From positions 161,501-225,500 of the forward strand of contig NZ_WTYF01000003.1 in the NCBI RefSeq assembly GCF_009827315.1: 64,000 bases of DNA. The letters are read 5' to 3'. Positions 38,937 through 41,792 of this stretch are shown piece by piece. How positions within the stretch are numbered: position 1 is the stretch's first letter; each line of letters starts with the position of its first letter. A program made the position numbers and the translations under genes. The notes under the pieces were generated by a model. That model worked only from the letters and a program-made list of their open reading frames with translations. It did not search any database and had not been told where the DNA came from. The stretch is from Qipengyuania gaetbuli (GTDB lineage Bacteria; Pseudomonadota; Alphaproteobacteria; Sphingomonadales; Sphingomonadaceae).

Positions 38937-39302
38937 ATGCCGCGCTATTTCGATCTGTCGACCAGCAAGCCCGAGCCGGGCGAGCTTCCCGAGGTTCCGC
39001 TCGGGGGCACCCGTGCGCAGGCCATTCATCGCATGCAGATCGGCGTGGCCGGTGTGGTCCTGATGGTCCTGCTCGTCGGACTTGCGAGCCTCGTCCAGGA
39101 ACGCACCCGCGAAGTCGATGCCGCTGCCGTGCCGGAAGCTGCCTCCACGACCGAGCCGAGCGCCGGCCCGACGCAGGCCGACCCGCTGGTGGAAGCGGGC
39201 GTGGTCCCCGATCTTCCCGCCGGACCCAGCCCGACCGCATCGCAAAGTCCGGCCCCCGTGCCCGAACAGGGTGTCGGCAATGCCGCGCCTGCGGGCGAAT
39301 AA
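38937..39302 (+). CDS. Small single-pass membrane protein of unknown function
   Basis: A 121-residue protein: a soluble N-terminus (MPRYFDLSTSKPEPGELPEV), one membrane helix (about 32-52, IGVAGVVLMVLLVGLASLV), then a low-complexity Ala/Pro/Glu tail. A TTG at 38901 is also in frame. I know no family. It overlaps the next gene by 23 bases and precedes the dcw cluster. Confidence 0.7.
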   Translation: MPRYFDLSTSKPEPGELPEVPLGGTRAQAIHRMQIGVAGVVLMVLLVGLASLVQERTREVDAAAVPEAASTTEPSAGPTQADPLVEAGVVPDLPAGPSPTASQSPAPVPEQGVGNAAPAGE

Positions 39303-40035
39303 CCTCCTAGCTCCGCTTGCCGCCCTCCTGCTCGCCGCGTGCGGGGCGGATGGCGGCGCGGCGGACGAGGCTGCCGCCGAAGGACCGCGCGAGCGGCTGG
39401 GCCTGTTCACCACACTGCCGATCTACTGGAACGAGCAGCAGGACATTGCCGCCATGCTCGAACCTGAAGCGCAGGAGCCTTCCTGGGTTCGTGCCGCGCT
39501 GGAAGAACGTCACGAGCTGGTGCCGCTCGACACGCTGGAAGTCGGTGGCATCTCCGGCCTCGACACGCTTCTCATCGCACAGCCGCGCGCCTTGTCGGCC
39601 GCCGAGAACGTCGCGCTCGACGACTGGGTGCGCGGAGGGGGCAGGGCGCTGGTGCTGGCCGATCCCTTCCTGACCCAGCATTCCGATTTCGCGCTGGGCG
39701 ATCCGCGCCGGCCCTTCGATGTCGTGCTGATCTCGCCCATCCTCGCACGCTGGGGCCTCGCGCTCGAATTCGACGATGCGCAGGGCGAGGAAGAGCGCGT
39801 CGTCACGGTCGGCGATGTGGCGGTGCCTGTCCGGCTGGCCGGTCGCTTTGTTGCGGCGGAAAGCGGTGAAGATGCCGAATGCGCCATCGCGGGCGAAGGC
39901 CTGCTGGCCGATTGCAGCGTGGGCGAGGGGCGCGTGCTGCTGCTGGCGGATGCCGCCATCCTCGACACCGAAAGCGACGACGAAAACCGCCGTGCCGCAG
40001 TCGAGTCGCTGCTGGCGCGACTCCGGAAGCGTTAG
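39280..40035 (+). CDS. Lipoprotein with GldG/DUF4350-like domain
   Basis: A 251-residue protein. The leader ends in ALLLAACGAD (lipobox). The rest resembles the periplasmic domain of GldG-type ABC-associated proteins (PF09822/DUF4350): ERLGLFTTLPIYWNEQ, then a segment with VRGGGRALVLADPFLTQHSDF and RVLLLADAAILDTES. No ABC ATPase or permease is near. It overlaps the preceding small membrane protein, so they form a pair just before the dcw promoter. Function unknown. Confidence 0.8.
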   Translation: MPRLRANNLLAPLAALLLAACGADGGAADEAAAEGPRERLGLFTTLPIYWNEQQDIAAMLEPEAQEPSWVRAALEERHELVPLDTLEVGGISGLDTLLIAQPRALSAAENVALDDWVRGGGRALVLADPFLTQHSDFALGDPRRPFDVVLISPILARWGLALEFDDAQGEEERVVTVGDVAVPVRLAGRFVAAESGEDAECAIAGEGLLADCSVGEGRVLLLADAAILDTESDDENRRAAVESLLARLRKR

Positions 40036-40039
40036 GGTA

Positions 40040-40076
40040 CGGGAAAACCCGGGAGGGATGCCGGGAATTTGCGGGA
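40040..40076 (+). repeat. Four phased CGGGA repeats, forward
   Basis: CGGGA occurs at 40040, 40050, 40062 and 40072 (spacing 10, 12, 10), just after the stop at 40035. Resembles MraZ operator geometry (TGGGN with 5-base spacers in E. coli). Confidence 0.6.
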
Positions 40077-40112
40077 CCGCACCCGATTCTCCGCGGAATT
40101 CCGTGACTTGGC

Positions 40113-40127
40113 TTAAGGATGTGGTAA
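40113..40127 (+). promoter_or_regulatory. CtrA-like site in the dcw promoter region
   Basis: TTAA, seven bases (GGATGTG), GTAA: 7 of 8 matches to TTAA-N7-TTAA. It overlaps the -10-like TAAGAT. Confidence 0.35.
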
Positions 40128-40185
40128 GATTGCCCACAAGCTTTTTCGGTAAAAACACATTATAAATCAGTATATTGCTGGTTTA

Positions 40186-40230
40186 TCCCGTAATTTCCCG
40201 CAATTTTCCCTTCCATCCCCGCGTCTCCCG
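40186..40230 (-). repeat. Five phased CGGGA-type repeats, reverse
   Basis: On the plus strand TCCC(G/T/C) starts at 40186, 40196, 40207, 40216 and 40226 (spacing 10, 11, 9, 10); three are TCCCG. Read on the minus strand these are CGGGA, CGGGA, AGGGA, GGGGA, CGGGA. They lie just downstream of TATATT (40171-40176). Confidence 0.65.
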
Positions 40231-40371
40231 CGATAAATCTACCTGACATCGGACAGCCAGTGTCTTTGCGCGCTCGATCAATGGGTTGGGCGAGCCGGTC
40301 GAGCCTTGCTCGCCCGGGACGGGGGAGGTGTGTCCGGGCAATGTGTCGAACACGAGCCGGGGACGGGGCAG

Positions 40372-40857
40372 GTGCAATTCGGAGGGTACAGCGGACAAGC
40401 CTATTCGCCTGCGGGCGACAAGGGCCGCTTTGTGCTTCCGCCGGTCTTCCGCAAGGCGCTCAAGGAATCCAGTGACGGCCGCGTGCTGTGCCTCATGAAG
40501 CACAACAAGTGGGACTGCCTCGTCGGCTTCGGCCTGTCGCGCAAGGAAGAGCTCAACGACCAGCTCGACCGCGAGGAAGAAATGGCCGTGCGCCTCGGCA
40601 GGGATTTCGACCGCGACACCCGCGCCAGCCAGCTGTTCGGCTTTATCGAGATGCCCTTCGACGACAGCGGCCGCTTCGTGATGCCGGAGCACCTGCGTGC
40701 GCTCGGCAAGATCGAGGACGGTCTCTATTTCCAGGGCGGCGGCCGCTTCTTCACTCTGTGGAACCCTGCCGAACTGGCCAAGATGGACGATGAATGGGCG
40801 GGCGCGAAGGCGGCCTGCGAAAGCTTCCTCGCCGAAGCGAAGGCGAAGGGCAAATGA
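40372..40857 (+). CDS. mraZ: Transcriptional regulator MraZ
   Basis: A 161-residue AbrB-fold regulator, first gene of the dcw cluster. It has two copies of the MraZ domain: [16 protein letters not shown] near the start and [18 protein letters not shown] in the second half, each with the DxxGR(x)xLP-type core. In E. coli MraZ represses its own promoter. GTG 40372 ([15 protein letters not shown]) has GGGGCAG upstream. The stop overlaps the rsmH start (ATGA). Confidence 0.95.
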
Positions 40858-41792
40858 GCGCCGCGCCCCATATCCCCGTCCTCCTCGACGAAGTGATCGA
40901 GGCTCTCGACCCGCAGCCGGGCGACGTCGTCATCGACGCGACCTTCGGTGCGGGCGGCTATACGCGCGCGCTGCTGGAGCGCGGCGCGACGGTCCATGCC
41001 TTCGACCGGGATCCCGACGCAATTGCTGCGGGTCGCACCTGGCGCGAGACGGGGGAAAACCCGCCGCGCCTTATTCTCCATCCGCATCGTTTCTCCGAAA
41101 TGCTCGACGTCATGACGTCGACCGGGGTGGCGCGAGTCGATGGCGTGGTGATGGATATCGGTGTGTCTTCAATGCAGCTTGACCAGGCGGAGCGCGGCTT
41201 CGCCTTTTCCGCGGACGGTCCGCTCGACATGCGCATGAGCCAGGACGGTGAAAGCGCGGCAGATTTTCTCAATACTGCCGACGAAGCGGCGATTGCCGAC
41301 GTCATCTATCGCTATGGCGAGGAACGCCAGTCGCGCCGCGTGGCCCGCGCCATCGTCGCCGCGCGCCCGCTGGAGACGACCGGCGAACTGGCGCGCGTGG
41401 TGCGCAGCGCCCTGGGGCACAAGCCCCATGACAAGAAGGACCCAGCCACCCGCACTTTCCAGGCCATCAGGATTCACGTGAACGGCGAGCTCGACGAACT
41501 GTCCCAGGGGCTGTCCGCCGCCGAACACCTGCTGCGCGAAGGGGGCCGCCTTGCGGTGGTCAGCTTCCACAGCCTCGAAGACCGGATCGTCAAGCGCTTC
41601 CTGCGCGAGGCATCCTCAACCCCAAGCGCCTCGCGTCACGTCCCACAGGCGGCGCAGCGCGATCCGGTCTTCATCAAGGTTTCCAAGGCAATCAAGCCGA
41701 CCGATGCCGAGATCGAGCGCAACCCGCGCGCCCGCTCCTCGGTCCTGCGCCATGCCACGCGCACGGCCACAGAAGCGAGGGAGGCGGCATGA
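40854..41792 (+). CDS. rsmH: 16S rRNA (cytosine-1402-N4)-methyltransferase
   Basis: A 312-residue SAM enzyme (MraW). [13 protein letters not shown] opens it, [17 protein letters not shown] is the SAM loop and [18 protein letters not shown] carries the conserved motif. The C-terminal [16 protein letters not shown] is family-typical. It overlaps mraZ and ftsL by 4 bases each. Confidence 0.97.

Follow-up and report, generated by a model that had tools for sequence, protein, structure and literature searches.

The stretch of DNA analysed here (the window; 64,000 nucleotides of Qipengyuania gaetbuli contig NZ_WTYF01000003.1) carries two arrays of short GGG-containing boxes before mraZ, facing in opposite directions, and raises the question of why two should be present and whether MraZ could hold both of them at once. 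The arrays lie within a 336-bp gap (40036-40371) between an upstream gene (39232-40035; ABC_transp_aux) and the GTG start of mraZ at 40372; that gene is on the same strand as mraZ, so the gap serves no divergent gene. The mraZ product adjoining the arrays scores above the Pfam MraZ cut-off, its start codon having been picked by eye. Beyond rsmH, a small frame without a Pfam match at the place of ftsL is followed by a penicillin-binding transpeptidase at the place of ftsI. The coordinates of all features are collected in Table 1.

Table 1. Features of the mraZ upstream region and adjoining genes (window coordinates)
Feature	Position	Strand	Details
Distal array, four CGGGA boxes	40040..40076	+	starts 40040, 40050, 40062, 40072; spacings 10, 12, 10
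IHF-like site	40151..40177	+	A-tract 40151-40155; AATCAG-TATA-TTG 40165-40177; one mismatch to WATCAANNNNTTR
Proximal array, five TCCC boxes	40186..40229	-	starts 40186, 40196, 40207, 40216, 40226; overlaps predicted -35 and spacer
Predicted -35 TTCCAT	40211..40216	+	inside proximal array; register of TTGAC in other Alphaproteobacteria
Predicted -10 GATAAATC	40232..40239	+	directly after proximal array; TAAATC starts 17 bp after -35 hexamer
Structured 5' leader RNA	40242..40351	+	three helices; closing helix CGGACA 40250-40255 with TGTCCG 40331-40336
mraZ	40372..40857	+	GTG start; Pfam MraZ 24.7 bits (cut-off 23); presumed repressor of own operator
rsmH (mraW)	40854..41792	+	next dcw cluster gene; PF01795, E 1.5e-90

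Two arrays of MraZ-like boxes

The distal array consists of two pairs of boxes 22 bp apart, a layout shared with three other loci (L035, L036, and L045). The proximal boxes, read on the minus strand from 40230 downward, are CGGGA, GGGGA, AGGGA, CGGGA, and CGGGA. An earlier note on this DNA, made from the sequence alone, had in its heading described both arrays as CGGGA repeats; the coordinates of all nine boxes are confirmed, and the description holds for the four distal boxes, all of which are CGGGA, but not throughout the proximal five, which include GGGGA and AGGGA. Both arrays are far beyond chance. When 40036-40371 was shuffled 5000 times with dinucleotides preserved, four GGGA chained at 9-12 bp arose once and five chained TCCC never (the longest TCCC chain had three), and the two arrays are the sole chains of at least three phased GGGA or TCCC within the 64-kb window.

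The likeness to MraZ sites of E. coli, proposed in the same note, is borne out: mraZ of E. coli K-12 is preceded by GTGGGAAATTGTGGGGCAAAGTGGGA, and both arrays resemble MraZ boxes. As in E. coli Pmra, whose MraZ boxes were reportedly described by Eraso et al. 2014, GGG-core boxes at 10 bp stand directly before mraZ, with rsmH next. E. coli K-12 differs in having three TGGG boxes on the plus strand, after a TAAACT that we read by eye as the -10, whereas the window has five minus-strand boxes over the predicted -35 and spacer and, separated from them by about 110 bp, a second, inverted array upstream. An MraZ-box operator is characterized by at least three GGG-core boxes spaced 10 bp apart just before mraZ, next to a gene that encodes MraZ; both features are present here, and we consider it very probable that the proximal array is such an operator. 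The distal array is also likely to be bound by MraZ.

MraZ acts as a repressor in E. coli and M. genitalium (PMC8475190). For Burkholderia, a further study describes MraZ as an octameric ring and reports four repeats of 7 nt separated by 3-nt spacers (PMC7761207). In B. cenocepacia, these four repeats of 10-bp period, comparable to the boxes described here, lie in a fragment bound in EMSA, and the other of two overlapping probes (BS1) is unbound; unlike the boxes of the present locus, they make up a single array that covers the transcription start, downstream of the -10 (PMC7761207).

The proximal array overlaps the predicted promoter

The two arrays had been thought to flank the promoter. Instead, the predicted -35 falls inside the proximal array and the predicted -10 directly after it, and what lies between the arrays is the IHF-like site. 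The layout is promoter-like and recurs: TTCCAT occupies the -35 place in 21 of 51 family genera, with variants in the others, and G.TA occupies the -10 place in 43 of 51. In other Alphaproteobacteria, reverse TCCCA or CCCA boxes likewise stand at 10 bp before mraZ, and of 27 loci at the level of order or class that have three or more boxes, 14 have TTGAC within the array, followed in every case (14/14; shuffled fraction 0.004) by N17-19-TA, the boxes being interleaved with TTGAC-N17-TA; the remaining 13 are without TTGAC. A sigma-70 scan gave no match in 40000-40420, and the proposed promoter is thus also unseen by the scan. Since the proximal array covers the predicted -35 and spacer, MraZ bound there would naturally be expected to occlude RNA polymerase at this part of the mraZ promoter.

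A main promoter between the arrays was considered and rejected, as no conserved -35 precedes the AT-rich TAAAWCA element, the sigma-70 scan is empty there too, and the conserved TT...TA at +25/+48 fits instead the TTGAC-N17-TA layout of other Alphaproteobacteria. A minor promoter may be located there. For the AT-rich element, CtrA-, GcrA-, and UP-type readings were also considered.

The position of the distal array, which starts a few bases past the stop of the upstream gene (40035) with its boxes facing the opposite way, brings up another assignment, namely that it separately controls read-through from that gene or an antisense promoter, bound by MraZ or by another protein. We regard this as improbable: no mirrored -10 is seen by eye at the matching place in the window, the distal boxes resemble the proximal ones, and a phased distance to the proximal array (see below) would not be expected.

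Conservation of the arrays across genomes

From 125 mraZ upstream regions collected in the family, 116 were kept (one was too short, and eight near-duplicates were dropped). Across these loci, a GGGA-GGGA spacing of 10 occurs 104 times (about 3 expected) and a TCCC-TCCC spacing of 10 occurs 152 times (about 2 expected). The spacings of TCCC are mainly 9-11, 20/21, and 30, and those of GGGA mainly 10, 22, and 32, with 22 occurring 48 times and 20 more rarely (12 times). The two spectra thus indicate that the arrays differ in layout, the proximal boxes recurring every ~10 bp and the distal boxes forming 10-bp pairs repeated each 22 bp. At least two phased TCCC are present in 104 of the 116 loci, three in 73, four in 59, and five in 17. 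In addition, similar bases, approximately WWTYRC, are preferred at the six inner positions in the distal pairs and in the first proximal pair when the latter is reverse-complemented. This comparison of mraZ upstream regions is the check that the earlier note had suggested, and it finds the repeats conserved, in keeping with the proposal.

Where the N-terminus of MraZ is of GQ type, 29 of 38 genus entries have a distal pair within 60-260 bp (GQ sought in the first 12 residues; entry L125 doubtful) versus 5 of 32 other entries, a difference that is not independent evidence because the clades are related, and in which genera enter once per MraZ type, so that a few stand in both rows, and loci without an anchored array are scored as having no pair. 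The 9 of 38 GQ-type entries without a distal pair in range imply that the distal array is dispensable.

Beyond the family, 57 of 60 fetched order- and class-level loci were read, the other three having given no start motif. Reverse boxes at 10 bp are common at class level (37 TCCC and 54 CCCA spacings of 10 in 28 loci). Here the likeness to the window ends: forward pairs at 10 bp are rare both in the class (one GGGA, downstream of the array, and no TGGG in the 28 loci) and in the order (two GGGA and five TGGG in 29 loci). The proximal array therefore has the look of an ordinary MraZ operator, and the inverted distal pair that of a clade feature. We note that three loci from another family of the order (L150, L156, and L157) have, by eye, additional CCCA or TGGG boxes in phased arrays, facing one way or the other, well upstream of the promoter array; distal arrays of the MraZ type may thus have had more than one origin.

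Six family genomes gave no MraZ match in the initial single-sequence search. In three of them (two of g89 and one of g86), the frame that precedes rsmH looks, by eye, like a divergent MraZ, and the TCCC or CCCA boxes form chains of two at most; in g89 (L127 and L128), there is no clear TCCC array, and the boxes may, by eye, read CCAC/CCCA. The other three (L129, L130, and L131) belong to one genus, g21, which is compact (2.1 Mb) and AT-rich, and have at the mraZ place before rsmH an unrecognisable frame without a Pfam match and no chain of phased TCCC or CCCA. That the phased array is absent where MraZ is unrecognised is only suggestive, the three g21 genomes counting as a single event.

As an alternative, the promoter could be controlled by G-quadruplexes formed in the G-rich arrays, as reported in S. 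aureus, where a G-quadruplex motif is located in a G-rich stretch downstream of the mraZ promoter; conserved motifs of this kind occur at the mraZ genes of several bacteria (PMC11796246). In the window, the distal array has five GGG runs with loops of 1-7 nt (by eye) and so fits the canonical motif. However, among the 74 loci with a distal pair, the canonical G3N1-7 motif is found in 9 distal and 24 proximal arrays, which falls short of conservation, and quadruplexes would leave unexplained why an A follows GGG, why the box spacing is fixed at 10 bp, and why the two arrays are phased at 11 bp. We consider this explanation highly improbable.

A wider MraZ regulon was also considered and rejected. 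The Q. gaetbuli genome has 16 matches to GGGAN5CGGGA, three of them at this locus, and the other 13, which equal the control count, have no second pair within ~1.5 kb; coding and intergenic places are not separable among these matches, since open frames also cover those at mraZ.

A different kind of element accompanies mraZ in part of the loci. Repeats of the form GAAC-N7-GAAC or GTTC-N7-GTTC, which we take to be the LexA-box form of Alphaproteobacteria, are located upstream of mraZ in 15 of the 57 loci read at order and class level (0.7 expected), including L149, L150, L152, L156, L157, L178, L180, and L182, and in 15 of 125 loci of the family (1.8 expected); other spacer lengths give 0-3. 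They hint that the division cluster may be under SOS control. In gut metagenomes, a LexA site at an mraZ homologue was bound by B. subtilis LexA in EMSA (PMC3998124).

The separation of the arrays is helically phased

The distance from the distal to the proximal array varies between loci, mostly from 80 to 200 bp, and does so in steps of ~11 bp, the nearest distal pair lying near 101, 112, 123, 133, 145, 155, or 167 bp from the first TCCC. A Rayleigh scan with one strict locus per genus (24 genera) gives a best period of 10.85 bp (R 0.743, p 2e-4), the 53 strict loci give 11.05 bp (R 0.791), 72 loci give 10.95 bp (R 0.740), and 33 genera without the strict filter give R 0.70; none of 5000 uniform draws reached the observed R in any of these scans, whose range and strict filter were set after inspection of the array layouts. 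When the 22 distinct distances are counted once each, p is 0.0014. Measured to the mraZ start as a control, the same 53 pairs are unphased (R 0.09 at 11 bp; best R 0.20). Among 72 tetramers, phasing is strongest for GGGA. With a position-weight anchor, which excludes 20 of the 116 loci as having no array above 12 bits, a pair is present in 74 of 96 loci, with R 0.787.

Hold-out loci, which are other species of genera already sampled, were assessed with preset period and phase. Array and pair are present in 21 of 34 (V-test, p 1.7e-5), in 19 of 32 loci after removal of two near-duplicates of training loci (R 0.693, p 1.4e-5), and in 13 loci at one per genus (R 0.819, p 2.3e-5). Among 27 loci of the window's own genus, 24 give R 0.945, which is not counted as support as 18 of the 27 nearly duplicate loci of the earlier scans; for the nine that do not, R is 0.965 (p 4.8e-5), but these are close relatives.

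The locus thus has two marks of a looping pair, remote sites of like box sequence and a separation constrained to whole helical turns, although the absolute helix face of the arrays depends on the twist in vivo. The looping repressors of gal, lac, and ara act through two remote operators with whole-turn spacing and a bending-protein site, and like elements are found here; the present locus differs in having box arrays and a ring-forming AbrB-like protein, and in that looping is proposed from sequence. Because a phased separation is what a bridging protein would impose, it supports a bridge, and on balance we favour a loop between the two arrays.

The same periodicity could arise if whole box units were duplicated or deleted, with only the proximal array serving as the usual MraZ operator and the distal boxes raising the local amount of repressor, or binding more rings on the same face, without any loop. 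The 22-bp recurrence of distal pairs described above fits such a history, as does one locus with pairs at -167, -145, and -123. The spacer also contains lone GGGA boxes at nearly the same phase (R 0.60), and part of the phasing could therefore stem from gain or loss of whole box units and not from looping; however, with 30 such boxes in 46 loci, the spacer is mostly non-box sequence. Equal-length spacers of relatives align only with several gaps (L004 versus L002, 69% identity over 120 bp each), so that free insertions and deletions should have erased the phase. Box-unit turnover would, moreover, have to yield the registers -133/-155 and -101/-112, which require phase-keeping changes in the spacer or array, and it sits poorly with the unphased distances to the mraZ start. 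We judge this explanation rather unlikely, though the strongest of the alternatives to a loop between the arrays.

A fixed IHF-like site adjoins the proximal array

When 36 genera are aligned on the first TCCC, the main conserved block in the 60 bp upstream has two parts, one A-rich (-34 to -31) and the other reading WATCAR-N4-TTR (-21 to -9); in the window, the IHF-like core starts 21 bp before the first TCCC. This core was compared with WATCAANNNNTTR, which we take to be the IHF consensus. Up to two mismatches to the consensus at exactly -21 are found in 61 of 96 loci (~0.5 expected from local shuffles), the next best offset having 11 loci and the median offset being 0; the other 35 loci exceed two mismatches at -21. 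The Q. gaetbuli genome has genes for both subunits, IHF-alpha and IHF-beta each scoring over the cut-off, beta narrowly. Counted per locus, the site is present in 54 of 74 loci with a distal pair versus 7 of 22 without; counted per genus, the association is not significant (17/33 versus 5/18, p 0.14). The site adjoins the proximal array instead of marking the loop centre, so that the distal boxes would not come to lie over the proximal ones in a simple symmetric hairpin. Bound at this site, IHF would be expected to bend the DNA and thereby aid a loop.

A structured leader RNA of mraZ

Downstream of the predicted -10, the sequence folds into a closing helix and two hairpins. The alignment (A1) comprises 34 of 51 one-per-genus leaders, 17 having been dropped after inspection as their closing helix was not plain; 82.1% of its cells pair, compared with 38-46% in slid controls. 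Both sides changed in 75 cells, versus 26.8 in shuffles (0/500 as high), and 15 pairs have two-sided change, versus 11.1 in shuffles (9/500 as high). Taken by itself, the leader of the window has a minimum free energy that does not differ significantly from control (z -0.67), and the case for the leader thus rests on covariation; RNAalifold alone recovered one of the three helices.

A covariance model finds 25 of 34 hold-out loci on the correct strand and 7 of the 17 dropped leaders at E up to 0.01, with L225 and L233 also matching on the other strand. It has no match up to E 0.1 in L127-L132 and none in the 60 order- and class-level loci. Its sole match in the window is the leader itself (69.2 bits, E 1.2e-12; the window sequence is part of the model). 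Rfam has no match for the leader, either over the whole window at the gathering cut-off or in six loci at E up to 1. The leader, which recurs at many loci of Sphingomonadaceae, is a new structured RNA of mraZ, and we would guess at a role in attenuation or in control of mraZ translation. A long mraZ leader occurs in another alphaproteobacterium, Rhodobacter sphaeroides, where UpsM is 268 nt long with a strong terminator (PMC5089854); the leader here is ~125 nt by the predicted start and has three helices, and no terminator-like site was found in it in the window.

A proposed operator bridged by MraZ

Our literature search, which covered few subscription papers, found none that deals with looping by MraZ, with an IHF site at this gene, or with an mraZ leader in sphingomonads. 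To our knowledge, the purpose of the MraZ ring, with its surplus of DNA-binding heads over a single box array, is unsettled. A ring-shaped oligomer would have more such heads than the proximal array fills, and the distal array, with its two inverted pairs of like box, lies upstream at constant helical phase; the spare heads of the ring, or a second ring, could hold the distal boxes and so close a loop. From the sequence, we infer MraZ binding to both arrays, IHF binding, loop formation, and repression as the outcome. Taken as a whole, the reading that we prefer, with moderate confidence, is an autoregulatory MraZ operator before the division and cell-wall (dcw) cluster in which rings would bridge both arrays, probably aided by IHF. 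Bridging by MraZ, first raised in the earlier note, thus gains from box likeness, conservation, and helical phasing, but such a bridge would not close around the promoter, as that note had pictured.

More tentatively, though quite conceivably, MraZ in this clade may be a looping repressor whose ring spans two inverted, phased arrays with IHF bending the DNA between them, so that the division genes would answer to both proteins, the leader adding a second layer of control. If this is true, a very widespread regulator of the division cluster would join the looping repressors and be tied to IHF. A natural two-array operator with whole-turn spacing over many genera would allow a direct and cheap test of whether a ring bridges distant sites, for which the natural spacing series (mostly 80 to 200 bp, in 11-bp steps) is a ready-made experiment.
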